64,000 bases of DNA from positions 248,001-312,000 of the forward strand of contig JBBFKT010000001.1 of the NCBI GenBank assembly GCA_037482015.1, read 5' to 3'. The stretch's first letter is position 1. Each line of letters opens with the position of its first letter. Origin of the DNA: Thermodesulforhabdaceae bacterium. GTDB lineage: Bacteria; Desulfobacterota; Syntrophobacteria; Syntrophobacterales; Thermodesulforhabdaceae. Shown here piece by piece: positions 5,444 through 60,416 of this stretch. The position numbers and the translations under genes are program-made. The notes under the pieces were generated by a model, which saw only the letters and a program-made list of their open reading frames with translations, made no database searches and had not been told where the DNA came from.

Positions 5444-6481
5444 ATGAATATTGCGTGGATCTGGACAGTTCTTAAGCTATTTATAATTGTTGTTTGTGGA
5501 GTGGGTGGGTATTTTATTACAGCACAAATTGATTACTTTGCATCATATTCATGGGCACCTTTTGCAGGGGCTTTTATTGCTGGACTTATAGCTTCAATCG
5601 TTATAGCTCTTGAAAATGTCATCAGGAGGCTTCCTCTAAAGAGGATTCTTGGTGGAACTTTAGGACTTATCCTTGGACTTTTTATCGCTAGGCTTATAGG
5701 CGGAAGTTTTACTAGTCTTCAGAATCCAACGGTTCAGGTGAGTATTTATGTTATTCTCTGCTGCCTTTTTGGTTACATAGGAACAGTCTTGGGAAGTATC
5801 AAATTTGCCGAGGTCGCTCCTAACCTGCCATGGTTTGGTAAGGGGGGCGTCGTTAAAAGCGGCAGTAGTATTCCTAAAGTTCTGGATACTAGCGTGATTA
5901 TTGATGGTCGGATTTTAGATGTGGTAGATGGAGGATTTTTAGAAGGACCTCTTGTGGTGCCGGATTTTGTCCTTCAGGAACTTCAGCACATCGCCGACAG
6001 CCAGGATCAACTCAGGAGAGCAAAGGGACGACGTGGATTGGATATTCTTAAACGCCTTCAGGAAAACAAGCAAATTGAAGTGCGCATTGATCGCCACTCT
6101 ATAAAGGAAGGCGGTGATGTAGATACCAAGCTTGTTAACCTTGCTCTCAAGCTTCAGGCTAAGATACTCACAAATGACGCAAACTTGGCAAAAGTTGCAG
6201 AAGTCAACGGTATCCAGGTTTTGAACATGCATAGACTTGCTCACGCTATGAAACCCACCGTTTTGCCGGGGGAAGTGTTGAAGCTTCAGATTCTTAGAGA
6301 AGGCAAGGAACACGGTCAGGGTATAGCTTATCTTGAGGACGGCACCATGGTGGTGGTTGAAAATGCAAGCAAATACCTGGGGCAGGAAGTGGAAGTTTCC
6401 GTAACGAGTGTGCTTCAGACTCCTGTAGGTCGCATGATCTTTACGGCTCTTAAGACTTCAGATGACGGACGTCAGCGCTAA
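5444..6481 (+). CDS. PIN/TRAM domain membrane protein (YacL family)
   Basis: 345 residues. Four hydrophobic segments fill roughly residues 5-130. A PIN nuclease-like domain follows, with acidic residues in VLDTSVIIDGRILD and LTNDANLAKVA, and then a C-terminal TRAM RNA-binding domain. The PIN fold coordinates metal through these Asp residues and usually cuts RNA; the in vivo role of YacL proteins is not settled. GGAGGA precedes the ATG. The end overlaps the next gene by 20 bases, implying translational coupling to the pseudouridine synthase and a shared RNA-related role. Confidence 0.9.
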   Translation: MNIAWIWTVLKLFIIVVCGVGGYFITAQIDYFASYSWAPFAGAFIAGLIASIVIALENVIRRLPLKRILGGTLGLILGLFIARLIGGSFTSLQNPTVQVSIYVILCCLFGYIGTVLGSIKFAEVAPNLPWFGKGGVVKSGSSIPKVLDTSVIIDGRILDVVDGGFLEGPLVVPDFVLQELQHIADSQDQLRRAKGRRGLDILKRLQENKQIEVRIDRHSIKEGGDVDTKLVNLALKLQAKILTNDANLAKVAEVNGIQVLNMHRLAHAMKPTVLPGEVLKLQILREGKEHGQGIAYLEDGTMVVVENASKYLGQEVEVSVTSVLQTPVGRMIFTALKTSDDGRQR

Positions 6482-7496
6482 AGACGACACAATTACTCGA
6501 GTTTTCGTTATTGACCAGTCTAGAACTGGACAACGGCTGGATGTGTTTTTGTCTAGTGAACTGGTGGAATGCTCAAGAAGCAGAGTTCAGAAACTAATCC
6601 AGGCTGGTTATGTTAAGGTAAACGATCGCATTCAAAAACCAGGTTATATCTTGCGGATAAACGATGTGGTTCGCTGTGAACTTGCTCAATTGTCCCCTTC
6701 CACCGATGCGGTGATTGAACCAGTTGCTATACCACTGGACATTATTTACGAAGATAGGTGGATTGTTGTGGTTAACAAGCCCCCGGGACTTGTTGTCCAT
6801 CCGGGTGCAGGCCAAGCTGATTACACTCTTGTTCATGGACTTCTTTATCATTGTGAATCACTAGCTTCCGTCGGCGCTCCCCTTCGCCCCGGTATTGTTC
6901 ATCGACTTGATCAAGGAACATCAGGAGTTATGGTGGTGGCAAAAACGGATGAAGCCTACTTTAAGCTGATCGACCAATTTAAAAATCGCACGGTTGAGAA
7001 AAAGTATCTAGCTTTTGTCTGGGGGGTTCCTAAAACAGAATTGTCGCCCATTGTAACCCTTATAGATCGCCATCCTGTTAACAGAAAGAAGATGGCTGTT
7101 TCGAAAACTAAGGGACGTGAGGCTATTACTTATTGGAAGATCTTAGAAAGTTGGGGGGTTTTTTCTCTGGTGGAAGCAAAACCAGTTACAGGAAGAACTC
7201 ATCAAATAAGAGTTCATTTTAGTTATATTCATCACCCTGTTGTTGGAGATGAACTTTACAGTAATCATAAAAGCCTTTGTAAGAATTTAAAGGACGAGAA
7301 GTTACGAAGACTTGTGATGAATATTGATCATCAAATGCTACACGCCGCTTCCATTGCTTTTAATCATCCCATATCAGGAGAACGCCTTTCTTTTTCAGCA
7401 TTACCACCTGAAGATATGGTTTCCGTCGTTACAACTCTATCTTCATCACATTCATCTCGCTATGGTCTCTTTGAAGCTATGTTTGTAGCGAATTGA
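6462..7496 (+). CDS. RluA family 23S rRNA pseudouridine synthase (RluD-like)
   Basis: 344 residues. An S4 RNA-binding domain (about residues 17-80, TGQRLDVFL to VRCEL) precedes the RluA catalytic domain, whose catalytic Asp is in IVHRLDQGTSG. The motif GRTHQIRVHF follows, as in the family. RluD-type enzymes make pseudouridines in helix 69 of 23S rRNA; the exact target here is inferred from the S4 plus RluA layout. The start overlaps the PIN/TRAM gene, and the 3' end overlaps the convergent potassium channel gene by 37 bases. Confidence 0.92.
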   Translation: MTDVSAKDDTITRVFVIDQSRTGQRLDVFLSSELVECSRSRVQKLIQAGYVKVNDRIQKPGYILRINDVVRCELAQLSPSTDAVIEPVAIPLDIIYEDRWIVVVNKPPGLVVHPGAGQADYTLVHGLLYHCESLASVGAPLRPGIVHRLDQGTSGVMVVAKTDEAYFKLIDQFKNRTVEKKYLAFVWGVPKTELSPIVTLIDRHPVNRKKMAVSKTKGREAITYWKILESWGVFSLVEAKPVTGRTHQIRVHFSYIHHPVVGDELYSNHKSLCKNLKDEKLRRLVMNIDHQMLHAASIAFNHPISGERLSFSALPPEDMVSVVTTLSSSHSSRYGLFEAMFVAN

Positions 7497-36525: not shown

Positions 36526-37349
36526 AGAAAATTTGCAATAAAGCTGTGCCCAGAGTCATGAGTATTGCGGGGTCAGATTCTGGCGGAGGGGCTGGCATTC
36601 AGGCTGATCTAAAAACCTGTTCTGCTCTCGGAGTTTACGCCACAACCGTTATTACGGCTTTAACGGCTCAAAATACTGTGGCGGTTAAGGGTATTTTTGC
36701 CGTCGATCCTTCGTTTGTTACGGCACAAATAGATGCCATTATGGAAGATATCGGCACAGATTCAGCAAAGACCGGCATGCTGGATCGAAAAGAAATAATA
36801 CAAGCTGTGGCTGAAGCTGTTAAAAGATGGAAGATTGAAAAATTCATTGTGGATCCAGTTATGGTGGCGAAAAGTGGTGATTTGCTTTTGAAGCCCGATG
36901 CAGTGGAAGCTCTTATCAAAGAACTTTTTCCCCTTTCTTACGCTATCACACCTAACGCCCCGGAAGCTCAGGCGATCCTTAGCGGAATGGTTATTAAATC
37001 ACTTAGTGACATGAAAGATGCAGCTGAACAACTCCACAGGCTCGGTCCCGGGTATGTTGTTCTCAAAGGGGGACATGTGGAAAGCGAAAAGGTTGTGGAT
37101 GTGTTATACGATGGAAAAAATTTTAAAATTTTCGAGGCTGATCGTATTCCATCCAGAAATACTCATGGAACAGGCTGCACCTTTTCTGCAGCTCTTGCTG
37201 CGTTTCTTGCAAAGGGAGAAGAAATTGAAGATGCCGTAGCAAAGGCAAAGCGCTATGTCACTGATGCTATAAAAGCTGGCTTGCCCATCGGATCAGGACA
37301 TGGTCCCCTTAATCATTTTTATAACTGTAGAACAGGTGAAGTTTACTGA
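36522..37349 (+). CDS. thiD: Hydroxymethylpyrimidine/phosphomethylpyrimidine kinase
   Basis: 275 residues of the ribokinase-like fold. It phosphorylates HMP twice to HMP-pyrophosphate, the substrate of ThiE. Visible motifs: SIAGSDSGGGAGIQADLKT at the N-terminus, VVDP-like VDPVMVAKSG, ITPNAPEA, and the ATP/anion hole THGTGCTFSAALAA. GTG start overlapping the thiL stop (GTGA). Last gene of the thiamine block; the toxin-antitoxin pair begins 62 bases later. Confidence 0.95.
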   Translation: MKKICNKAVPRVMSIAGSDSGGGAGIQADLKTCSALGVYATTVITALTAQNTVAVKGIFAVDPSFVTAQIDAIMEDIGTDSAKTGMLDRKEIIQAVAEAVKRWKIEKFIVDPVMVAKSGDLLLKPDAVEALIKELFPLSYAITPNAPEAQAILSGMVIKSLSDMKDAAEQLHRLGPGYVVLKGGHVESEKVVDVLYDGKNFKIFEADRIPSRNTHGTGCTFSAALAAFLAKGEEIEDAVAKAKRYVTDAIKAGLPIGSGHGPLNHFYNCRTGEVY

Positions 37350-37411
37350 GGATCTGTGCCAGCAATTTGCTTTTGACGTGAAATAGTTTCTTTAATGGAT
37401 TAAAGGCGATT

Positions 37412-37717
37412 GTGGACATTTATACACAAAAGGATCTGAAAGAATTCCTGAAGTCTTATTTTAGCCAGAAAGGCATATCGGTAAAAATTGTCCTCTTTGG
37501 CTCAAGAGCAAGAGGCCAAAACGAACCTTATTCTGATATAGATCTTGCACTTATTTCAGACGCAGATTTAACAGGTGAGCTGGTAGAATTAAAAGGAATT
37601 GTAGAAGAATCTAATCTTCCCTACAAAGTTGATATTGTCATATTTGAAAAACTCCCGCCGGAAATGAAGGAAGAGATTCTTAAAGAAGGCAAAGTATGGG
37701 TAGACTTGAAAAGCTAA
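37412..37717 (+). CDS. MntA-type nucleotidyltransferase antitoxin
   Basis: 101-residue minimal nucleotidyltransferase. The defining GS-x10-D-x-D motif is present: FGSRARGQNEPYSDIDLAL. MntA antitoxins AMPylate or bind the paired HEPN toxin HepT near its catalytic motif and block its RNase activity. GTG start at 37412 with AAAGG upstream. The end overlaps the HEPN gene by 22 bases, the usual coupled order. It lies directly upstream of the type III CRISPR operon. Confidence 0.88.
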   Translation: MDIYTQKDLKEFLKSYFSQKGISVKIVLFGSRARGQNEPYSDIDLALISDADLTGELVELKGIVEESNLPYKVDIVIFEKLPPEMKEEILKEGKVWVDLKS

Positions 37718-38103
37718 TTAGCGACTTTGCCAGAGCGCTAACAAGGCTGGATGAATCCGTTTCTAAAACTGAGCAATATAAATTAACGGGGGAGTATTCT
37801 TTTTATCGAGACTCGTCGATTCAAAGATTTGAGTTTACATTTGAAATTTTCTGGAAAACGTTGAGGGCCTTTCTGGAGAGAGATGGTATCATTTGCAGGT
37901 CTCCCAGGAGCTGTATAAGAGAGTTTTTTAGCCTGGGGCTCATATCTGAAGAAGAGATACAAATTCTGTTTAGAATGCTTGAAGATAGAAACCTCACTGT
38001 TCATACTTATTTGGAAGAAATTGCGGAAGAGATCTACTCACGTTTAGGCGAATATGTGGGGCTGCTCAAAGATATTAAGGGAAAAATAGAGTCATATAAG
38101 TGA
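37696..38103 (+). CDS. HepT-type HEPN toxin (HI0074 family)
   Basis: 135 residues, all-helical HEPN protein of the nucleotidyltransferase-substrate-binding (HI0074) group. The R-x4-H RNase motif is intact in LEDRNLTVHTY, with the extra Tyr two residues later that is the known modification site in HepT toxins. It pairs with the MntA protein whose gene it overlaps. HepT cleaves or blocks tRNA or other RNA when released. Neighbouring the Csm operon, it adds a second HEPN RNase to this locus. Confidence 0.85.
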   Translation: MGRLEKLISDFARALTRLDESVSKTEQYKLTGEYSFYRDSSIQRFEFTFEIFWKTLRAFLERDGIICRSPRSCIREFFSLGLISEEEIQILFRMLEDRNLTVHTYLEEIAEEIYSRLGEYVGLLKDIKGKIESYK

Positions 38104-38286
38104 CGTGATGTTCCTCTTTTAATGATCGTGCCTTGTAATGAGCAAATTCAAAAAGATTCCATTTTGTCTCCACGTTATATCCATAGTTTCTAAAAAATTT
38201 TCAGGACGATTTTTGTAAAAGGGGAAATTTGTCCCGTTAAAGATTTTTGAGAGCACGAGGTGAAACCAAATGAAGGGGAGAAAAAT

Positions 38287-40902
38287 ATGGAAGTTGGGAT
38301 AAGTTCAACCATAGCACTTGCTGCCTTGCTGCACGATGTAGGAAAATTTGCTCAGTATGCTGTTTCCCTGCCCGAAGGCTATAGAGAGCGTAATGCTGAT
38401 TTATATCAACCTTTTTGGAATAACCGTTACTACACTCATTCTCACGCTCTTTTTACAGCCTATTTCCTGGAATCAATGAAGAATTTTATTCCAGAAGGTT
38501 TTTGGAATCCAAATGCTTCGACGGTTAGAGGAGTTGCTCCCGATAGCCTGATTAACCTGGCAGCCATGCACCACAAACCGGAAACTCCAGCTCAATGGGT
38601 AATTGCCGAGGCAGATCGCTTGAGTAGCGGTTCTGATCGGGATGAGTTTACTGAAGGGAAGGCGATACCAGTATCAGATGCAATAAAAACGAAGCTTATT
38701 CCAGTATTTGAAATGCTTTTTTCAAGTGCGGATGCTTCCCGAGACGATTTTTCGTGGCGTTATCAGATTAAACCGATTGATGCCACAACTATTTTCCCTC
38801 AGAAGGACTCTTCGGAAGGAAGTGACGAGGATTATCGCAAACTTTATGCAGATTTTTCAAAGGCTTTTACGGAACTGGCGCATAAGAATAAACCTCTTCT
38901 CTGGCTTCAGCATCTTGACTCACTCTACCGCACTTTTACTTCTCATGTCCCGGCAGCCCGTGTAGGCAATGTCGTTCACGATGTTTCTCTGTATGATCAC
39001 AGCCGAACAACGGCAGCTCTGGCTGTAGCTCTTTACAGATATCACGAAGAAACAGATACACTTAGAGAAGACGCTGTAAAGGACAGAAATCCCCGGAAAT
39101 TTCTTATTGTTTCGGGTGACTTTTACGGCATTCAGTCGTTTATATTTTCGGTCGGAGGAGAACAACGAGGACGTCGGTCTAAGCTTCTCAGGGGTAGATC
39201 TTTTTCAGTTTCTTTGCTCACAGAGCTAGCTGCTCATGAAATTGCAAAATCTTTGAAATTGTCTCCTCTGTCTGTTGTTATGTCTGCAGGAGGTAAATTT
39301 CATCTTATAGCTCATAACACTGCAGAAAGCCGCAAGAAGATCGAAAAGGTTGCTCAAAAGCTTAACGATTGGCTTCTGGATGTGACATTTGGAGAGAGTG
39401 CTCTGGGCATCACTTATACCGGGTTTTCTCCCGCTGACCTTCTCAATGGTAGGTTTGAATCTTTCTGGAAAAGACACATTGAAGCGATGGAAGAAAAGAA
39501 ATTCCGCCGTTTTGATTTATCTAAACATGGCGGCGTCTTTAAGGATTTTCTCGATCGATTCCGTAACGACCTTTATCGTCCTCTATGCCCCTTCTGTGGA
39601 AAGCGTCCCTCCGAAGAAAAGGTTGAAAACGACCGAGCTATAGCTCGTCCCAATGAACGTGCATCAGCTTGTGGAATTTGCCGTGACCATATATTCGTAG
39701 GAACGAAGATAGTTAAGAAACACAGAGTAGCGGTCATTGATTCGCAACAGGGGGATTTAGTTGCCCCACTTTTCGGAAAATATCAGCTTAAGTTTGTAGA
39801 TCCAGGCAGCACCAGTATAGATCTCAAGGGCTTAAATGTTGAGAAATTTTGGGATGTGAACATTTACGATAATGGCACTGTTCCAACCGATGTAACCTTT
39901 ATGCCCGTAAATGGTTATGTTCCGGTTTATGAAGCCTATGATGAACATGATGAAAGAATTCTCGCAGGAGCAAGATCTGAGGAAGCCAAACTGGAACTAA
40001 TTGACATGATTCGAGAAGGAGATCCCAAGAGTTTTGCTCATATTGCCAGCAGAGCTCTTTCTTTTGGGGACGATGGGAAACTCTACGGCATTGACGCTCT
40101 GGGCGTTCTTAAAGCCGATGTGGACAATCTGGGAGCAATTTTTTCCTGCGGTTTTCGGGGAAAACGCTTTACTATGTCTCGTATGGCAACTTTGAGCCGA
40201 GTTTTGAATAACTTTTTTGCTCTTTATCTTCCATACGCATTACGCAACGAAGAAAAAGGAGCCTTTTGTGATGTTTACACTGTCTTTGCCGGAGGAGATG
40301 ATCTTTTCCTTATTGGTCCGTGGAATAAAATCAGGGATCTGGCAATCTTCATTGTTGGCAAGTTCAGAACTTACGTTTGTGAAAACCGGATGGTGTATAT
40401 CTCCGCAGGCATCACCCTGCATAAGCCATCTACGCCTATGGATGTTATTGCTGAAGAAACTGAAGAAGCTCTCGGTATGGCAAAAGCGAGCGGGAGAAAT
40501 AGAGTAACTATGTTTGGTCATTCGGTTTCCTGGGATGCGTTTTCCTGCTTAGTTGATGAAGTTCGCGAAAATTTAAAAAAGTGGCTTTCAGAAGATGTGC
40601 TGTCCCGTTCAGCGTTCCACAGGATTTTGAAACTCGTGGAGATGGCGGAGATAGAAGAATGTGCGATCAGTAGAGGCAAGGGCGTTTGTATTACGGACAT
40701 TGAGTGTGTTAAGTGGCGAGCTTTCCTCGGGTATCAGGTGGCAAGAAATGCCGCAAAGAAGATACGGGATAAGAAAGATGCTCAGAGAGTGCAGACACAG
40801 ATAGCCGGTCAACTGGCTAAATGGATAAATGATTACCGCGGCGCAATGATTATACCGTTCTGGAGTGTCCTATACGACACCAGAAAAAAGCGAGATTTTT
40901 AA
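38287..40902 (+). CDS. csm1: Type III-A Cas10/Csm1
   Basis: 871 residues, the large subunit of the Csm complex. The N-terminal HD nuclease domain has H16-D17 in ALLHDVGKF. A first palm domain precedes a zinc finger (C434, C437, C462, C465). The second palm carries KADVDNLGAIF and FAGGDDLF (GGDD at 669-672). HD predicts target-activated ssDNA cutting; GGDD predicts synthesis of cyclic oligoadenylates. ATG at 38287 with AAGGGGAG upstream; a GTG at 38260 would add nine residues. First gene of a six-gene operon. Confidence 0.96.
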   Translation: MEVGISSTIALAALLHDVGKFAQYAVSLPEGYRERNADLYQPFWNNRYYTHSHALFTAYFLESMKNFIPEGFWNPNASTVRGVAPDSLINLAAMHHKPETPAQWVIAEADRLSSGSDRDEFTEGKAIPVSDAIKTKLIPVFEMLFSSADASRDDFSWRYQIKPIDATTIFPQKDSSEGSDEDYRKLYADFSKAFTELAHKNKPLLWLQHLDSLYRTFTSHVPAARVGNVVHDVSLYDHSRTTAALAVALYRYHEETDTLREDAVKDRNPRKFLIVSGDFYGIQSFIFSVGGEQRGRRSKLLRGRSFSVSLLTELAAHEIAKSLKLSPLSVVMSAGGKFHLIAHNTAESRKKIEKVAQKLNDWLLDVTFGESALGITYTGFSPADLLNGRFESFWKRHIEAMEEKKFRRFDLSKHGGVFKDFLDRFRNDLYRPLCPFCGKRPSEEKVENDRAIARPNERASACGICRDHIFVGTKIVKKHRVAVIDSQQGDLVAPLFGKYQLKFVDPGSTSIDLKGLNVEKFWDVNIYDNGTVPTDVTFMPVNGYVPVYEAYDEHDERILAGARSEEAKLELIDMIREGDPKSFAHIASRALSFGDDGKLYGIDALGVLKADVDNLGAIFSCGFRGKRFTMSRMATLSRVLNNFFALYLPYALRNEEKGAFCDVYTVFAGGDDLFLIGPWNKIRDLAIFIVGKFRTYVCENRMVYISAGITLHKPSTPMDVIAEETEEALGMAKASGRNRVTMFGHSVSWDAFSCLVDEVRENLKKWLSEDVLSRSAFHRILKLVEMAEIEECAISRGKGVCITDIECVKWRAFLGYQVARNAAKKIRDKKDAQRVQTQIAGQLAKWINDYRGAMIIPFWSVLYDTRKKRDF

Positions 40903-40923
40903 TATAAAGACAGGAGGGAAAAG

Positions 40924-41328
40924 ATGGCAAGTTTATGGAAAGAACTTTGGAAGGATGAAAAAACAAATCTAGTTAATCCGGAAGCCTTCTCCAAAATTGC
41001 CGAAGAATGGGCAAAAAAGATCAGCGGAGAAGATCAGAATCAAAGGAAGAACAAGACTTCCCAGTTAAGGAAGTTTTACGATGAGATTTTTAAATTAAAC
41101 CAGAGAGCTCGTGCTCAGGAGAGTAACTGGGATGAGATTCTGCCTTATGTCCACCTGGTTATAGCAAAGGCTGCTTACGCTAAAGGAAGAGGGCTTGTAA
41201 CTGACAGTTTTGTAAACGAATTAAAAGAAATGCTTTCTAACGTTAAAACCAGAGAGCATTTGCACGCAGTAACGACTTTTCTTGAAGCATTCATGGCTTT
41301 CTATAAGCAGTATCGGCCAAGGGATTAA
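40924..41328 (+). CDS. csm2: Csm2, small subunit of type III-A effector
   Basis: 134 residues, all-helical. TSQLRKFYDEIFKLNQRA and ILPYVHLVIAKAAYAKGRGL are typical of Csm2, which stacks along the inside of the complex and contacts target RNA. It is 21 bases after csm1 with AGGAGGGAAAAG before the ATG. Size and position between csm1 and csm3 match the family. Confidence 0.93.
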   Translation: MASLWKELWKDEKTNLVNPEAFSKIAEEWAKKISGEDQNQRKNKTSQLRKFYDEIFKLNQRARAQESNWDEILPYVHLVIAKAAYAKGRGLVTDSFVNELKEMLSNVKTREHLHAVTTFLEAFMAFYKQYRPRD

Positions 41329-41353
41329 TTTTATGGAGCATAAGGAGGTTGCT

Positions 41354-42064
41354 ATGAAACTGACGGCAATCAGGGAATATCGCGGGCGTATTAGGGTTAT
41401 AACTGGATTGCACATAGGTGCTGGCGACATGGAGATGCATATAGGTGGAACTGACAATCCCGTCGTTAAACATCCTTTCACTTTTGAACCATACATTCCC
41501 GGATCATCGCTCAAAGGGAAGGTTAGATCTCTGATGGAACTTAAAAGCGGTCTTATGGCGTTCACAGATGGCAAGCCTTTGTCAATAAATGCTCTTGGTA
41601 AGGCTTCTCAGGATCTAAAGGCTTACGGTGAAGCGATTATAAAGCTTTTCGGGACAAGTGGAGCAGAAGAAGAAAAGCTTGCCCAATTCGGACCTTCAAG
41701 GCTTTCCTTCTCCGACTGCATGCTTGCTGAAGAATTTAGGGAAATGGCTCGCAAGGGTGATGTGGTGTTGACAGAAATTAAGCCGGAAAATTCCATAAAC
41801 CGAATAAAAGGAACTGCTGAGAACCCTCGGTTTACCGAGCGTGTTCCTGCAGGAATTGAGTTTTCCTTTTACATCACAATGAAGGTTTTTGACAGCGATA
41901 ATCCTGACGATCTTGAAAATAAGTTCCTGGAAGGATTGAAACTTGTAGAATACGATGCCCTGGGTGGTAGTGGAAGTCGAGGTTATGGAAGAGTGAAATT
42001 CTTCTTCGACGATGAGAATCTCAATAGAAAATTCCAGGACATATTAGTTTTCCATAAAAAATAG
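41354..42064 (+). CDS. csm3: Csm3, backbone RAMP and target RNase
   Basis: 236 residues, RAMP superfamily. GLHIGAGD and IGGTDNPVVKHP contain the catalytic Asp (D34) that cuts target RNA at six-base intervals. PYIPGSSLKGKVRSLMEL is the Gly-rich RAMP motif, and ALGGSGSRGYGRV the C-terminal one. I chose the ATG at 41354 with AAGGAGG upstream; an earlier in-frame ATG overlapping csm2 would add 24 unsupported residues. All active-site features look intact. Confidence 0.95.
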   Translation: MKLTAIREYRGRIRVITGLHIGAGDMEMHIGGTDNPVVKHPFTFEPYIPGSSLKGKVRSLMELKSGLMAFTDGKPLSINALGKASQDLKAYGEAIIKLFGTSGAEEEKLAQFGPSRLSFSDCMLAEEFREMARKGDVVLTEIKPENSINRIKGTAENPRFTERVPAGIEFSFYITMKVFDSDNPDDLENKFLEGLKLVEYDALGGSGSRGYGRVKFFFDDENLNRKFQDILVFHKK

Positions 42065-42077
42065 GGAGGAAACTATC

Positions 42078-43097
42078 GTGAAGTTCTGTGAATTAGTCCT
42101 CCGCCCTCACTCTGCCTTTGGCACGCCATTGAAGGGCGATACTATCTTTGGCCAGTTTTGCTGGCAAGCTGTTATGGATGGTTCGCTCTTAAATGGTGGC
42201 TTTGAAAAGTGGAGAGATTGTTATCATAAAAAGCCCTTTGCTGTCTTCTCTTCGGCTTTTCCTGTTCTTCGCTCAAACGGCAAGCGAAGATACTATCTCC
42301 CAGTTCCTTCCTGTCCTTTGCATTTTTACTATTCTGTTCCGGTGAAAGAACAATGTTTTGAAGTTCTGAGTAGCCTTAAGGAGATAAAGAGTAAACGCTG
42401 GGTACCGATTTCAGGTGATACCCTTAGATTGATTCCTAAAGCTGATGAATTGCTGAATGATCGGGAACTGTTCAGGGAACTCTTCAAGGAAGCTGTGAGT
42501 TTAACCAAAGAGAGAATCCTTCTGGATTTTTCTCAGGTGCACAACACTATTGATCGTTTAAGTCTTACAACCGGGGAGGGGGAGTTTGCTCCATATGTAA
42601 TGGAGAACATCTGGTTTGCACCTAAATTGGAGTTGGTGGTCTTTGTTCTCTTCGACGAAGAAGCAACAGATGTAGATCGAATTGCAAAGGGGCTTTCCTG
42701 TATTGGTAGCTATGGGTTTGGAAGGGATGCTTCGATTGGCTTGGGAAGGTTTGATGTAATTGAATGTCTGGAACGAAATATCCCAGACTTTGCTGGTTCT
42801 AAATATTGTTACGCCCTTTCACCCTTTGTCCCAGCTGAACATGAAAGTGGTGGTATCTGGTATAAGCCTTTTGTTCGGTTTGGGCGCCACGGTAATATTC
42901 TGGCAGTGTCTCGCAATCCATTTAAAAATCCTGTGCTTATGGCTGACGAAGGAGCGGTGATTGAAAAAAGCAATGCGGACAAGCCATACATTGGTAAGGC
43001 TTTGATGGGTCTTTCCAAAATCCAGGAAAAAGCTATTGGTCAAGGCTATGCAATTGTGATCCCCTGTGAATTTAATATCCCCGTCACGGAAACCTAG
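42078..43097 (+). CDS. csm4: Csm4, 5'-handle-binding RAMP
   Basis: 339 residues. N-terminal RAMP features (KFCELVLRPHSAFGTPLKGDTIFGQFCW) and a Gly-rich C-terminal loop GSYGFGRDASIGLGRF match Csm4, which caps the complex at the crRNA 5' handle and contacts Cas10. GTG start at 42078 with AGGGAGG upstream. csm5 starts 85 bases downstream; that gap holds no obvious gene. Confidence 0.93.
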   Translation: MKFCELVLRPHSAFGTPLKGDTIFGQFCWQAVMDGSLLNGGFEKWRDCYHKKPFAVFSSAFPVLRSNGKRRYYLPVPSCPLHFYYSVPVKEQCFEVLSSLKEIKSKRWVPISGDTLRLIPKADELLNDRELFRELFKEAVSLTKERILLDFSQVHNTIDRLSLTTGEGEFAPYVMENIWFAPKLELVVFVLFDEEATDVDRIAKGLSCIGSYGFGRDASIGLGRFDVIECLERNIPDFAGSKYCYALSPFVPAEHESGGIWYKPFVRFGRHGNILAVSRNPFKNPVLMADEGAVIEKSNADKPYIGKALMGLSKIQEKAIGQGYAIVIPCEFNIPVTET

Positions 43098-43181
43098 AAT
43101 TAAAGGATTTGTTTCAGCCTGGATACTTGATGGTTACCCTTGGGGTAGGGCAGGGGACTACTAAAAGTAAGAGGTGAAACT

Positions 43182-44303
43182 ATGAACGTTTTGGATGTAA
43201 GAGAATGCTACATAAAAATTTTGACTCCTTTGCATGTGGGGTGTGGAGAGTTTTATGAGCCTTTTTCTTTCACTGTGGATACTAGCCGTAAAGAAATCCT
43301 GATTTTAGATTTCGGTCCCCTACTGAGGGCTATGGATTCTAAATTGAGGAGTGATTTTTCCAACATATGCCGTAAAGGCACGATAGAGTCTCTTTTAGAA
43401 ATGTATAAGTTTCTAAGACGACTTGGAGAACGGAAAGATATTATAAACAAAGAAGGGGTTGTGTCACGGAAAATTCAAGTATCTCAGGAGTTTGTTAAGC
43501 ACTACGAGGAGGTAGTTGAAGGTGGAAAGACGAATCGTCGTCCTGATAATTACAATCGTCACATAGATCCACGAATTAATGCCCAGAGGGTTATAACTAA
43601 TTTTGCAATAGGAAGGACAGCCTTTGAAACTCGGGAAAAAGAGCTTCCAATTATTCCGGGCTCGTCTATAAAGGGTGCCATAAGAACGGCTGTCCTTAAT
43701 TTATGGCGCCATAATGCAGCCAATAAGCGATATAGTGTTGATCAAAATAAAGATCTTGAAAGAGACATTCTAAAAGGATCTTTTCATACAGATCCCTTTA
43801 GCCTTGTGAAAGTTTCGGACTTTCTTCCTGTAGAAGAACCAAGGGTAAAAATAGTTTATGCTGTGAATGTTAAAAAGGGATCTGGAAAAGGGGGAAGGGG
43901 GCCATACCAGATTCTCGAAGTGGTGCTACAGGGTAAGTTCAAAGGCAAAATTACCATTATGGAACCTCAAAACGGTAGAGACGTTAAACAACCTTTGGGT
44001 TTCGAAGATCTGAAAGGGAGTTTAAGAGAGTTTTATAAAAAAGAATTTGATCGAGAACTTAATGAACTTAAATCGTGCGGGATTGAAGTATCAATCCCGA
44101 AAATATCTGGTTTTTTGATTCGCATTGGCCGTCATAGTGGAGCAGAATGTGTAACTATTGAAGGATTTCGAAAGATCAAAATAATGGGTAAAAGCCCTTC
44201 TTATCTCGACCATGCGACTACGTTATGGCTTGCATCAGACGATAGAAGGCGTCCTTTAGGTGCTCGCCCTTTTGGGTGGTGTGAATTGACGTTTGGAAGC
44301 TAA
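43182..44303 (+). CDS. csm5: Csm5, RAMP at the crRNA 3' end
   Basis: 373 residues, RAMP protein. ILTPLHVGCGE opens the first ferredoxin-like fold; LPIIPGSSIKGAIRTAVLNLW is the Gly-rich RAMP motif; a C-terminal RPLGARPFGWCEL ends the protein. Csm5 binds the 3' end of the crRNA and recruits host nucleases for maturation. AGGTG precedes the ATG. The CARF gene starts 40 bases after its stop. Confidence 0.93.
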   Translation: MNVLDVRECYIKILTPLHVGCGEFYEPFSFTVDTSRKEILILDFGPLLRAMDSKLRSDFSNICRKGTIESLLEMYKFLRRLGERKDIINKEGVVSRKIQVSQEFVKHYEEVVEGGKTNRRPDNYNRHIDPRINAQRVITNFAIGRTAFETREKELPIIPGSSIKGAIRTAVLNLWRHNAANKRYSVDQNKDLERDILKGSFHTDPFSLVKVSDFLPVEEPRVKIVYAVNVKKGSGKGGRGPYQILEVVLQGKFKGKITIMEPQNGRDVKQPLGFEDLKGSLREFYKKEFDRELNELKSCGIEVSIPKISGFLIRIGRHSGAECVTIEGFRKIKIMGKSPSYLDHATTLWLASDDRRRPLGARPFGWCELTFGS

Positions 44304-44342
44304 AAATAACCTTTATAATTTCTACGGCGGGGTGGAAACTAT

Positions 44343-46037
44343 ATGGCAAAAGTATTTGTCAGCACATTGGGAACCGGGGATTATGTGCCATGTCATTACA
44401 TTATTAACGGCTGGAGATCCAATTTGGTTGTTTTCGTCCAGGAAGCTCTTTTCGATTATCTATGTCCTACCTGGGGTGAAAAAGATCGGGTAATAGTGTT
44501 TTGCACAGAAGAAGCTGAAAAGAAGAACTGGTGCGATCATGATAATTTTGAAGGATTACAAACCAGGCTGAAAAGTCGTAACTATCCACCTGAAATTTGC
44601 ATGATTTCCGTCCCTAGCGGAAAAAGCGAAAACGAAATAATGGCTATATTTCTTAAGGTAATGGAGAATTTAAAGCCTGGTGATGAAGTTTTCATGGATA
44701 TAACTCACTCCTTTCGCTCAATACCGCTTCTTCTTACTGTTGCAATTAATTACGGTAAAGTGGTTAAGGGAATTTCAGTAGGAGGTATATTTTACGGAGC
44801 TCTGGAAGCTCTTGGAACAATTCCAGAAGTTAAAAAAATGCCTGAAGACGAAAGAGATGTTCCGGTGTTTGATCTTACCGCCTATGATTCAATTATTGAA
44901 TGGGCCCGAGCAGTAGAAGTTTTCAAAAAAGCCGGATATGTGGATGACTTGGGAGCACTTATAAACAAGAATCTTGGATCTTTGTTCAAGGACGAAAGCA
45001 AAAAAATCGACAAGAATTTACTAAAGATGTTTTCTACTTTGAAAAGCCGCCTTGAAAGCTTGGTGCAAAGCCTCGCAACCGCAAGAGGCGCGGAGATTTA
45101 TTCTTATGATTTTACTTCGTTTTCGGACATTATAAACAAGATTGAAGATTCTGATCTTATTCCACCTATGAAACCACTTTTTGAAATACTTAAAGAAAGT
45201 TTGGCTGGTTTTGAAGAGAGCGATCCCATGAAAAGGACTTTTAATGCGGCAGAGTGGTGTCTGGATCACATGATGATACCCCAGGCTTATATTTTCCTTA
45301 GAGAAGCCGTAATCACCGGGTTGTGCGATTGTTCAGGACTTGATTATTTAGATGAGAAAAACCGTGAAGGTTTCTGGAGTTCTCTTCTGCATGCATTATC
45401 TAAGAATGAATTGGACGAAATTAAGGAACGCGGAGCATTAGCGGTTCAAGTTGTAAATAGGGGCGGTGAACCTTTGCGTAAGTTAGTGAAGACTTTTGAG
45501 AAACTCAGAGCCTATAGAAATGATTATCTCCATGGAGGGTGGAGAGATAAACCAATAAAATCTCAGAGACTTATACGCAATATAAGAGAGTATCTGTCAG
45601 AACTTCGCGGTAACTGGGCGGAATACCAGGGTTACAGGGAAGGCTGCAAAAAGAAAGCATTTGTTGTCTTGTCTCATGAACTAACAGATGAGCAAAAAAA
45701 GGAACTTTTTTCTATCTGGTCGGTCAGAGAAATTGTAATTATGCCTTCCGAGGTCAGGGAAGCATGGGAAAAGATTTCACCCTCTGTAGATTCATTGGAA
45801 AAGGAATTGAAACCGGTTATTGATTGGTTGGAAACTTGTTCATCTCCGGGAGATGTGGTGGTAGTGCAAGGAGAATACGGCGCAACTGTAAGAGTGGCAA
45901 TGCGATCTCGGGAGATTGGACTTATCCCCATTTATGCAACGACCGAAAGAGTGTTGGAAGAGAATAAACTTCCCGATGGTAGTATTAAGGTCGAAAGAAT
46001 TTTCAGGCATGTTAAGTTCAGGAAATACTTTGACTAA
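44343..46037 (+). CDS. CARF-HEPN effector (TM1812/Csx1 type) fused to Csx20-like ring nuclease domain
   Basis: 564 residues in three parts. Residues 1-~170 are a CARF domain of the TM1812 group: VFVSTLGTGDYVPC at the start and the signature MDITHSFRSIPL. Residues ~190-430 are helical and end in a HEPN RNase motif RNDYLH (R392, H397). Residues ~436-564 resemble the separate Csx20 family: FVVLSHELTDEQKKEL, LKPVIDWL, GDVVVVQGEYGATV, GLIPIYATTER and FRHVKFRKY. Csx20 is proposed to degrade cyclic oligoadenylates. If right, the chain is an RNase activated by the second messenger plus its own off-switch. Last gene of the csm operon. Confidence 0.85.
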   Translation: MAKVFVSTLGTGDYVPCHYIINGWRSNLVVFVQEALFDYLCPTWGEKDRVIVFCTEEAEKKNWCDHDNFEGLQTRLKSRNYPPEICMISVPSGKSENEIMAIFLKVMENLKPGDEVFMDITHSFRSIPLLLTVAINYGKVVKGISVGGIFYGALEALGTIPEVKKMPEDERDVPVFDLTAYDSIIEWARAVEVFKKAGYVDDLGALINKNLGSLFKDESKKIDKNLLKMFSTLKSRLESLVQSLATARGAEIYSYDFTSFSDIINKIEDSDLIPPMKPLFEILKESLAGFEESDPMKRTFNAAEWCLDHMMIPQAYIFLREAVITGLCDCSGLDYLDEKNREGFWSSLLHALSKNELDEIKERGALAVQVVNRGGEPLRKLVKTFEKLRAYRNDYLHGGWRDKPIKSQRLIRNIREYLSELRGNWAEYQGYREGCKKKAFVVLSHELTDEQKKELFSIWSVREIVIMPSEVREAWEKISPSVDSLEKELKPVIDWLETCSSPGDVVVVQGEYGATVRVAMRSREIGLIPIYATTERVLEENKLPDGSIKVERIFRHVKFRKYFD

Positions 46038-46210
46038 GGTTAAAATCACGGAGTTTTGCCTGAATTGTTAAAGTCTCTTATTATTCGCTTCTCCCTATTT
46101 TGACTGTATTTCTGCCTTTAATTCTGGGTAAGTTTGCTCCTTGCTTTTAGTATTTAGACAAGTTATTGAAAATTGTGGGTGTAACTTCTGTAAGTTCAGG
46201 GAGATTTGAA

Positions 46211-47329
46211 ATGACCATCAGTGTATCTTTCATAAAGCGTCTTGAGTCTGTTGATCCTCAACTGAGAGGCGTTCTTATCGACTTGCTTGGAGAAGTAGAA
46301 CGTCAAAGGGAGGAGTCGGCTACCAAGAAAGAATTTAACGAACTGCGAGATATTGTACAAGACCTTGCAGAGGCTCAAAAGAAAACAGAGGAGAGGTTAA
46401 ATTCTCTAGCTCAAATAGTTGAAACCCTAGCAGAGGCGCAGAAGAGGACTGAAAAACGGGTGGAGGAGTTGGCAGAAGCGCAGAAAAGAACAGAAGCAAA
46501 GCTGGAGGAGTTAGCGGATGCGCAAAGGAGGACGGATGAAAGGCTGAATTCTCTAGCTCAGAAAGTTGAGGAGCTAGCAGAGGCGCAGAAGAGAACCGAA
46601 AAACGGGTTGAAGAATTAGCGGAAGCGCAGAAGAGAACAGATGAAAGGCTGAATTCTCTAGCTCAGAAAGTTGAGGAGCTAGCAGAGGCGCAAAGGAAGA
46701 CGGATGAGAGGTTAAATTCTTTAGCTCAGAGGGTTGAAGAGCTGGCTGAGGCGCAGAAGAGAACTGAAAAACGGGTCGAGGAATTAGCGGAGGCGCAAAA
46801 GAGAACAGAAGCAAGGCTGGAGGAGTTAGCGGAAGCTCAGAAAAGAACAGAAGCAAGGTTGGAGGAACTGGCAGAGGCGCAGAGGAAAACCGAAGAAGAA
46901 ATAAGAATACTGGTAAAAAGAGTCGATATTATTGAAGAGCGTCTTGAAGGCATATCAAATTCTGTTGGCTACAGTCTTGAAAATAGAACATACGTAAAAC
47001 TGCCGCGTCTCTTAAAAGATAGATATGATGTGAGAGTTGATGGAAAACTTATTAGAAGATATGTGTCCGTTGATGATAAGCAAATTCAAGTGAATATATA
47101 CGGTCGCGGTAAAAAAGGGGAGCAGGATGTTCTGATTTTAGGTGAGTGCAAAGTTAGGCCGTCTAAGAAAGAAATAGTTAGGTTTAGGAAATATGCCGAA
47201 AAAATAGCGGAAAAACTTGGAATGAGTCCGTTTTTGATTATGGTAGCCCACGATTTTCCACCTGCTATCGAGGAGTTTTTGGAAACCCAGGGTATCCCGT
47301 ATCTTTGGTCATATGAACTTGAAGAATAG
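46211..47329 (+). CDS. Coiled-coil repeat protein with C-terminal PD-(D/E)XK-like domain
   Basis: 372 residues. Residues ~50-235 are uninterrupted 7-residue-multiple repeats based on LAEAQKRTE, predicted to be a long coiled coil. The C-terminal ~130 residues have a restriction-endonuclease-like core: [11 protein letters not shown] (Asp and E-x-K) after [10 protein letters not shown], as in DUF3782-type proteins. Function unknown; nuclease activity is inferred. ATG at 46211 with AGGGAG upstream; an earlier in-frame start at 46166 lacks support. It lies 173 bases after the CRISPR operon, same strand; a functional link is open. Confidence 0.8.
46364..46909 (+). repeat. In-frame 42/63-bp coding repeats (11 units)
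   Basis: Eleven tandem units within the coiled-coil gene: seven of 14 residues ([14 protein letters not shown] type) and four of 21 residues ([21 protein letters not shown] type, shown here only by type). The DNA copies are nearly identical, pointing to recent expansion by recombination or slippage. All units keep heptad phase. This is not a CRISPR array: there are no spacers and it is translated throughout. Confidence 0.9.
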
Positions 47330-47369
47330 TCGTAATTTTACTTATTCCAATTCTGCTACGAGGATCTGA

Positions 47370-48002
47370 ATGAAAGAAGAAATTGTTTCGATTTCTGTGA
47401 TCACAAAGGGAGAAATCCTAAGGCTTGAAGGAAGGCTTGCTCCTGGTGGTGCTAGCGGTGTGGTTATATGCCATCCACATCCACTTTACGGCGGTGATAT
47501 GGATAATGGAGTTGTGATGGCTTTACAAAAGGCTTTTTCCGGTGAAGGTTTTACGACTCTGAGATTTAACTTCCGTGGAGCGGGGGATAGCGAAGGGAAC
47601 TACGATGATGGGCAAGGTGAAGTGGACGACTTGATAGCTGCATGTGATTTTATAAAAAGTCGCGGAGTTGAACATCTCTACGGGGCAGGGTATTCTTTTG
47701 GAAGTTGGATCTTACTGAGATCCCTGCAAAAATTGCTTTTCAAAGGACTTGTTCTGGTTGCTCCCCCATTGAATATGCTGGATTTTGAAGGATTGAATAT
47801 TCCAACTTCTACGCCAGGCCTTATTTTAGTAGGATCCAGAGATGAATTTTGCCATAAAAACCGCCTCGAGGCATGGCTTAAAGAAAATCAATCTGCTTCA
47901 GTTACAATTATTGAAGGTGAAAATCACTTTTTCTGGAAGAGCCTTCCACAGGTATTCGAACGAGTGAAAGAAGAAGCCCGTAAATGGCTAGGAAAGATCT
48001 GA
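47370..48002 (+). CDS. Alpha/beta hydrolase (dienelactone hydrolase-like)
   Basis: 210 residues. Catalytic triad candidates: Ser in GAGYSFGSWIL, Asp in VGSRDEFC, His in EGENHFFW. The oxyanion strand CHPHPLYGGDMDN and RFNFRGAGDSEG are typical of the small alpha/beta hydrolase group often annotated as dienelactone hydrolase-like. Substrate unknown. GAGGATC precedes the ATG at 47370. It is followed 36 bases later by the sirtuin gene. Confidence 0.88.
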   Translation: MKEEIVSISVITKGEILRLEGRLAPGGASGVVICHPHPLYGGDMDNGVVMALQKAFSGEGFTTLRFNFRGAGDSEGNYDDGQGEVDDLIAACDFIKSRGVEHLYGAGYSFGSWILLRSLQKLLFKGLVLVAPPLNMLDFEGLNIPTSTPGLILVGSRDEFCHKNRLEAWLKENQSASVTIIEGENHFFWKSLPQVFERVKEEARKWLGKI

Positions 48003-59369: not shown

Positions 59370-59867
59370 TTAGAGAAAATTATACTTTCTCAACACATCA
59401 GCCAGTTTGGCGTTGTTTGGAGCTATATCTTTCAGCACTTCGATGATGTCTCTCATAAGCCCTTGCCTTTTAATCTCTTCCATTGCCTCTTCTCTGGCTC
59501 TACGAATGATGGTTCTTCTATCCCAATAGGCAAAGCCTATAACTGCGGCAACTAAGGCTGTAAAAATACCGGCGAGAATCCATAGAAACGTCATCATCTG
59601 ATCAAAACGCTTGTTGGTGTCTTGGCGCAGTTCTTCAAATCGCTTGTCCACTTGTTCAAATCGTTTGTCCACTTGCTCAAATCGCTTGTTCATGTCTTCG
59701 CGTAGTTCTTCAAATCGCTTGTCTACTTGTTGCATGAAAGTCTGCAGTGTAGCTTCAAGTCGTATCAGTCTATCTCTGTCTTCCTGAGTGAAGCCGGACT
59801 CAGCAAGGCAGGGTGAGACTAGAAATATCACAAGAAACAAAGCTAATATCATGTTTCTAAAGTTCAT
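59370..59867 (-). CDS. Coiled-coil membrane protein, copy 1
   Basis: 165 residues. N-terminal signal peptide (FRNMILALFLVIFLVSPCLAES), a heptad-repeat region (VDKRFEELREDMNKRFEQ type) with seven-residue repeats, then a transmembrane segment (FLWILAGIFTALVAAVIGFA), and a ~45-residue charged C-terminus (IIRRAREEAMEEI). Topology suggests a periplasmic coiled coil anchored in the inner membrane. Function unknown. ATG at 59867, AGGAGG eight bases upstream. Closely related to the next gene. Confidence 0.8.
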   Translation of the reverse strand: MNFRNMILALFLVIFLVSPCLAESGFTQEDRDRLIRLEATLQTFMQQVDKRFEELREDMNKRFEQVDKRFEQVDKRFEELRQDTNKRFDQMMTFLWILAGIFTALVAAVIGFAYWDRRTIIRRAREEAMEEIKRQGLMRDIIEVLKDIAPNNAKLADVLRKYNFL

Positions 59868-59897
59868 TGGCATGCCCTCCTGAAATCTTGCCGTTTT

Positions 59898-60416
59898 CTA
59901 CAACAGATTGTGTCTTCTCAACACATCAGCCAGTTTGGCGTTGTTTGGAGCAATATCTTTCAGCACTTCGATGATGTCTCTCATAAGCCCTTGTCTTTTC
60001 ATTTCTTCCATTGCTTCTTCTTTGGCTCTTCGAATGATAGTTCTCCTATCCCAATAGGCAAAGCCTATAACTGCGGCAACTAAGGCTGTAAAAATACCGG
60101 CGAGAATCCATAAAAACGTCATCATCTGATCAAAACGCTTGTTGGTGTCTTGGCGCAGTTCTTCAAAACGCTTGTCCACTTGTTCAAATCGTTTGTCCAC
60201 TTGCTCAAATCGCTTGTTCATGTCTTCGCGTAGTTCTTCAAATCGCTTGTCTATCTGTTCGAATCTTTTATCCACCTGTTGCATAAAGGTCTGTAGGGTA
60301 GCTTCCAGCCGTATCAGTCTGTCTCTGTCTTCCTGAGTGAAGCCGGACTCAGCAAGGCAGGGTGAACCTGGCAATGTCAAAAGAACTAAAGCCGCTATAA
60401 TGCCTTTTAAGTTCAT
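59898..60416 (-). CDS. Coiled-coil membrane protein, copy 2
   Basis: 172 residues, a tandem paralogue of the gene ending at 59370: same signal peptide plan, VDKRFEQ heptads, same transmembrane segment and C-terminus, with one extra seven-residue unit. DNA identity between the copies is very high in the transmembrane and C-terminal region, implying recent duplication. ATG at 60416 with AGGAGG eight bases upstream; an ATG two codons earlier is too close to it. Function unknown. Confidence 0.8.
   Translation of the reverse strand: MNLKGIIAALVLLTLPGSPCLAESGFTQEDRDRLIRLEATLQTFMQQVDKRFEQIDKRFEELREDMNKRFEQVDKRFEQVDKRFEELRQDTNKRFDQMMTFLWILAGIFTALVAAVIGFAYWDRRTIIRRAKEEAMEEMKRQGLMRDIIEVLKDIAPNNAKLADVLRRHNLL

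Follow-up and report, generated by a model that had tools for sequence, protein, structure and literature searches.

The toxin-antitoxin (TA) mechanism of HEPN/MNT pairs has been established, as described in sections of Yao 2020 (PMC7641770), the Legionella study (PMC11586414), Anantharaman 2013 (PMC3710099) and two papers by Makarova (PMC2701414, PMC3506569). Regarding TA modules and CRISPR, a passage of Makarova 2009 (PMC2701414) states that a strong link was not seen, and a passage of Makarova 2012 (PMC3506569) that immunity loci have toxins, apparently without the antitoxins of typical TA systems. The main text of a 2024 type III survey (PMC11229360) contains neither HepT, MNT nor the word 'toxin'. 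No literature on HEPN/MNT pairs in Csm or Cmr operons was found in searches that did not cover the two likeliest surveys, and an earlier mention is possible. Here we analyzed a HEPN/MNT pair located upstream of csm1 in a 64,000-nucleotide (nt) stretch, hereafter the window, from a Thermodesulforhabdaceae bacterium (GCA_037482015.1, contig JBBFKT010000001.1, positions 248,001 to 312,000). The pair lies at the 5' end of an inserted type III-A cassette, and such pairs are linked to type III genes in other genomes as well. With a probability of about 0.5, we regard it as a class I HEPN/MNT toxin-antitoxin module carried with the cassette, which it would serve as a maintenance or abortive layer. 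The two genes are:

37412..37717, + strand: MNT nucleotidyltransferase (MntA-like antitoxin), GTG start, 101 aa, GSX10DXD intact
37696..38103, + strand: HEPN protein of the HI0074/PF08780 branch (HepT-like toxin), ATG start, 135 aa, RX4HXY and QRFE intact

The open reading frames (ORFs) share a 22-nt overlap, with the antitoxin gene first and on the same strand. The first-pass annotation of the window had named them MntA and HepT and had described their active motifs as kept. Both motifs are exact: GSX10DXD is present as GSRARGQNEPYSDID at residue 30 of the MNT, and RX4HXY as RNLTVHTY at residue 98 of the HEPN. The MNT scored 60.6 bits with PF18765 and 58.4 bits with PF01909, while the HEPN scored 94.7 bits with PF08780. 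The HEPN is the sole PF08780 match (E<=1e-5) of the 2.72-Mb genome, and the MNT is one of four PF01909 matches. AlphaFold models of the HEPN and the MNT were confident (pLDDT 97.4 and 95.6). The HEPN model matched the AMPylated HEPN toxin 8xdj from Legionella (TM 0.89 over the query), the MNT model matched the Legionella MNT antitoxin 8xeo (TM 0.79-0.81), and the models of the pair also matched Thermus TTHA0048 (1wty). The HEPN exceeded the TIGR01987 HI0074 cut-off (84.6 versus 55.8 bits) but fell below that of the NCBIfam HepT equivalog NF047751 (21.7 versus 60 bits), and the MNT fell slightly below that of the MntA equivalog NF047752 (56.5 versus 60 bits). The assignment as a pair was upheld by folds, motifs and families. 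Judged by sequence, the two genes make up an ordinary class I HEPN/MNT module, for which the label HepT is loose.

The Legionella pneumophila HEPN-MNT system (8xdj, 8xeh, 8xeo), of the class I PF08780 branch, shares gene order, overlap, motifs and folds with the window pair. Residues R98, H103 and Y105 of the Legionella HEPN are also found in the window HEPN. The QRFE motif of the window HEPN also seems to correspond to the metal site (Q44/E47) of its Legionella counterpart. In contrast to the Legionella and type VII pairs, the window pair heads an inserted type III-A cassette, lies under the HepT and MntA equivalog cut-offs and is known here from its sequence.

Another related system is Cmr1-MntA, known by its chain name and a sequence match, in which an MNT of the same superfamily is part of a type III complex. 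The chain so named in PDB 9z7q, 9z7v and 9z7x aligned end to end (E 3.7e-76) with a Cmr1::MNT fusion that we found in Aquificota (L329, genome G396), and the fused form is therefore already known to its depositors. No HEPN chain of this system was found in PDB by sequence, and no paper was found for 'Cmr1-MntA', for MntA with Cmr1, or for HepT and MntA with CRISPR and Csm. Unlike Cmr1-MntA, the MNT of the window carries no fused Cas protein, and it accompanies a III-A rather than a III-B system. Csx1/Csm6 CARF-HEPN effectors provide a HEPN RNase in the same locus as the window pair. They carry a CARF sensor, which the window HEPN lacks, its partner being a nucleotidyltransferase; Pfam, PADLOC and NCBIfam scans detected no CARF or SAVED sensor domain in either the MNT or the HEPN.

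Links between HEPN/MNT pairs and type III genes were detected at nine loci besides the window. Three came from the best 80 loci of a named-genome scan. The order is cas6-MNT-HEPN-csm1 in Persephonella (L202), where the contig end cuts csm1, and cmr6-Csx1-MNT-HEPN in both Thermodesulfatator autotrophicus (L243) and a metagenome-assembled genome labelled Deltaproteobacteria (L203). Three Aquificota genomes (L326-L328) displayed csm1-csm2-csm3-MNT-HEPN-csm4, in which the pair overlaps both neighbours and the ratio of nonsynonymous to synonymous substitution rates of MNT and HEPN is about 0.05-0.16. The order cmr1::MNT-HEPN-cmr2 occurs at L329 and again in G274 (L075), which belongs to the window's own phylum. 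Both Cmr1::MNT fusions, from two genomes of two phyla, have RAMP and polymerase-beta domains by Pfam. G274 and G294, the latter with cmr6-ATPase-MNT-HEPN, were the two adjoining cmr genes among the PF08780 loci of the phylum sample that were read with longer flanks (34 of 70 rows). In all ten loci GSX10DXD and RX4HXY are kept and the frames are open. Although 31 of 395 genomes of the phylum matched the G274 fusion, its MNT part was properly covered in G274 alone, and the match in G077 ended at residue 372 and contained two stops.

Some small elements accompany these loci. By eye, two 25-mers resembling CRISPR repeats lie between cas6 and the MNT gene in Persephonella (L202:8650-8800), a possible mini-array, and a small pair, antitoxin-like and VapC-like, lies between cmr3 and cmr4 in Thermodesulfatator (L243:5541-6175). 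Genes that we take to be Uma2-like follow csm4 in an Aquificota csm operon (L327:1968-3181), and similar ones flank a MNT-HEPN pair away from CRISPR genes (L242:4712-5332 and 6025-6636). Perhaps the Uma2-like genes and the MNT-HEPN pairs belong to the same mobile set.

The proximity was further analyzed in an Aquificota sample of 136 genomes, for which 150 rows were listed for PF08780 and 110 for cas10. Four of these 150 are no more than 3 kb away from cas10, with about 0.45 expected at an assumed 1.6 Mb per genome (P=0.0012 if the four are independent). Counted as three events with L202 added, the excess has P=0.011. In the HEPN tree, which is based on a short alignment of 145 sequences, ten of them type III-linked, the link requires six changes (gains or losses), and the well-supported branches force the same minimum. 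The supported clade containing the window HEPN has six linked rows out of 24, compared with 4/121 elsewhere (P=0.0015), in a clade that was sampled by likeness to the window.

The gene order in the window is thiE-thiL-thiD, MNT, HEPN, csm1-csm5, csx1::csx20 and a coiled-coil gene, all on the + strand, followed by an abhydrolase gene at 47370. In congener G001, the one further species of its genus covered by the search, just 8 nt and no gene separate thiD from the abhydrolase gene, and the segment between them in the window is therefore an insertion. Its parts are:

37348..37356: 9-bp direct repeat GAGGATCTG, left copy, located at the stop codon of thiD
37357..47359: the insertion itself, about 10.0 kb, between thiD and abhydrolase genes that have an empty site in the congener
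47360..47368: 9-bp direct repeat GAGGATCTG, right copy, immediately 5' of the abhydrolase start

An abhydrolase homologue was located downstream of thiD, no further than about 1.3 kb away, in five of ten relatives. Only two copies of GAGGATCTG, one per junction, exist on the + strand of the window, and the repeat looks like a candidate target-site duplication. As a chance control, random 30-nt pairs had a 9-mer in common in 60 of 20,000 draws; another 10-mer chance match lies near the insertion site. No terminal inverted repeats beyond 5 bp were found at the insert ends, and no recombinase turned up in general family scans of the block. The whole block looks like a single insertion, and the pair may have come with it or may have entered its edge later. 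In sister genus G004, a csm1-5 operon 51-69% identical to that of the window occupies one site, and a module of csx1::csx20 (59%) directly followed by the coiled-coil gene (69% in the aligned part) occupies a second one beside a different csm operon (L108). The window block therefore combines modules. Downstream of the pair it comprises:

38104..38286: 183-nt gap between HEPN and csm1, no terminator or promoter match, special fold or repeat-like sequence
38287..40902, + strand: csm1/cas10, with an HD pair (residue 16) and GGDD (residue 669) retained; the mechanical ORF starts at GTG 38260
40924..41328, + strand: csm2, by family scans
41282..42064, + strand: csm3, mechanical ORF, true start probably later
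42078..43097, + strand: csm4, by family scans
43182..44303, + strand: csm5, by family scans
44343..46037, + strand: Csx1 (CARF-HEPN) fused to a C-terminal Csx20 ring-nuclease domain, RNDYLH intact
46166..47329, + strand: coiled-coil protein of repetitive sequence, encoded by the block's last gene

The likelier start of csm1 is ATG 38287, behind AAGGGGAG, rather than GTG 38260, and the gap to the HEPN is therefore exactly 183 nt, as the first-pass annotation had given it. Between HEPN and csm1 no terminator-like site was found (0 versus 1.1 expected in shuffles), nor was a + strand promoter match, and the RNA fold of the gap is ordinary (z-score 0.05). The first-pass annotation would have been refuted by a lack of co-occurrence with Csm loci together with a separate terminator between the two genes; such pairs do co-occur with type III operons in other genomes, and the gap is free of terminator-like sites. 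It was also right that two genes of the HEPN RNase type share one locus; they lie within 8.6 kb. The Csx20 domain of the second one scored 133.5 bits against a cut-off of 70. Csx20 is a ring nuclease for cyclic tetra-adenylate (cA4) according to a part of PMC12409355, and the Csx1::Csx20 effector is therefore probably self-limiting. The genome also has a second csm1, two cas1 genes and, outside the window, two CRISPR arrays.

Under the preferred reading, a self-contained HEPN/MNT pair would form the 5' end of the 10-kb type III-A cassette. The MNT would oligo-AMPylate tyrosine Y105 of the HEPN and hold it inactive. If the MNT were lost or outpaced, by damage to or loss of the cassette or by failure of expression or ATP supply during infection, unmodified HEPN would cut cellular RNA and growth would stop. 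The pair may thereby retain the cassette in the genome, and may be a second abortive layer beside the RNase Csx1::Csx20, which would be driven by cyclic oligoadenylate (cOA).

Several results weigh against this reading. Conservation of the adjacency across Csm loci, which had been suggested as a check, is ruled out for the phylum. Of 297 sampled genomes, 52 have PF08780 and 75 have csm1 at the cut-offs applied. A PF08780-type HEPN flanked none of the 71 csm1 loci other than that of the window, as judged from flanking DNA that extended to about 8 kb (1.5 kb or more on the upstream side for 61 loci). The nearest HEPN relatives among the matches listed (56-59% identity, Desulfurobacteriaceae and Aquificaceae) are located between housekeeping genes, without CRISPR genes in the flanks examined. 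Counting the csm3-csm4 trio as one event (two in total) weakens the Aquificota excess to P=0.077, and the difference in proximity between HEPN and PIN rows is not significant (Fisher P=0.12). The G+C content of the pair (0.38) makes it AT-richer than csm1-5 (0.43), and a separate origin is therefore possible. In a Legionella HEPN of the same branch, R98A and H103A barely altered RNase activity according to a section of PMC11586414, and an intact RX4H is therefore no proof of RNase function. Finally, the HEPN gene is separated from csm1 by 183 nt, with neither overlap nor fusion.

These results bear on the first alternative, in which a mobile HEPN/MNT pair landed beside the cassette or travels with it as a passive hitch-hiker without functional link. 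We consider this possible but would not favor it. It agrees with the 0/71 count, with the location of close HEPN relatives elsewhere in genomes and with the six changes of the type III label on the tree. It also agrees with Persephonella L204, a near-identical pair without csm1 in the 0.7 kb of contig downstream, where L202 has csm1. However, the overlapping csm3-csm4 insertion under purifying selection and the Cmr1 fusion are hard to credit to chance, and the PIN rows listed for the same genomes have no such proximity (0/150 within 10 kb of cas10). HEPN relatives were also found in plasmids (118 records for the window HEPN and 52 for the L329 HEPN), four phage records and three viral contigs, and no csm or cmr matches were found at the three viral HEPN loci.

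An upstream scan covered 102 of 104 same-strand ORFs preceding csm1 at 56 loci, two being omitted. It identified Cas6 (29), Cas_NE0113 (18), Cas_APE2256 (6), SAVED (2), PIN (1) and AbiEii (1), and no PF08780. A TA pair before csm1 is therefore unusual. MNT-model matches lie 2.6-7.3 kb from csm1 in five of the 71 loci (L122, L137, L140, L151 and L156), several in doubtful reading frames and none with a PF08780-type HEPN. Among 59 relatives, HEPN homologues were found by sequence in two, the window's genome and G011. The window pair at the head of a III-A cassette is thus unusual within its phylum, yet it is one of several recruitments to type III systems. In G294 a confirmed PIN-domain toxin gene and, by eye, a small antitoxin-like gene precede csm1 on the same strand (L112:10906-11590).

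In a second alternative, the HEPN would serve the type III complex directly as an RNase, freed when recognition of target RNA shifts its relation to the MNT. A Cmr1::MNT protein would allow such coupling, and cmr1::MNT-HEPN-cmr2 occurs in two genomes, one of whose fusions aligned end to end with the PDB chain; elsewhere the pair lies inside csm operons. In the window, however, the MNT is free-standing, neither fused to nor overlapping a type III gene, and the HEPN, though on the csm1 strand, is 183 nt away. Neither protein has a CARF or SAVED domain by the scans, a cOA-type effector is already present in the locus, and the Cmr1-linked HEPNs form a branch of the tree separate from the window HEPN. 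This explanation is therefore unlikely for the window pair. That the pair is a two-subunit nucleotidyltransferase acting on another substrate and not a TA module, the older HI0073/HI0074 view, is very improbable, even with the HEPN in TIGR01987, the HI0074 'substrate-binding subunit', and under the HepT equivalog cut-off.

A broader and more tentative interpretation is that HEPN/MNT is a recurrent arm of III-A and III-B systems, an AMPylation-controlled RNase whose antitoxin has become progressively tied to the Cas10 complex, such that loss of the complex or target engagement would free the toxin. The series would then lead from loose neighbours (window, Persephonella) through csm3-MNT-HEPN-csm4 to Cmr1::MNT, with the window as an early III-A stage still without fusion. 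If so, type III immunity would gain a mode of control without a second messenger, based on an antitoxin enzyme that is linked, physically or genetically, to the effector complex. The idea of Makarova 2012 becomes testable because both TA partners are located in or beside a type III operon, and the genomes with graded integration are natural test cases.

The window pair resembles CreTA CRISPR-guard modules in its proposed role, by which the host is made dependent on the CRISPR locus. CreTA is RNA-based with a crRNA-like antitoxin, whereas no repeat-like sequence lies between HEPN and csm1 in the window. A guard of the CreTA type, with a CRISPR-repeat-like antitoxin RNA in this gap, was therefore not indicated and was rejected. 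The genome's own array repeats, A with 105 exact 21-mer copies and B with 13, were compared with five gaps of the locus on both strands, and gave no match at p<0.1 either between thiD and MNT or between HEPN and csm1. In the gap that separates csx1::csx20 from the coiled-coil gene (46030-46180), a partial match of 15 nt to repeat A was detected on the minus strand (p=0.005, uncorrected for 20 tests), and a 9-nt match to repeat B between the coiled-coil and abhydrolase genes (p=0.05). Further downstream, 59634-60275 contains short tandem repeats of 21 and 75 nt and looks like another coiled-coil coding stretch.
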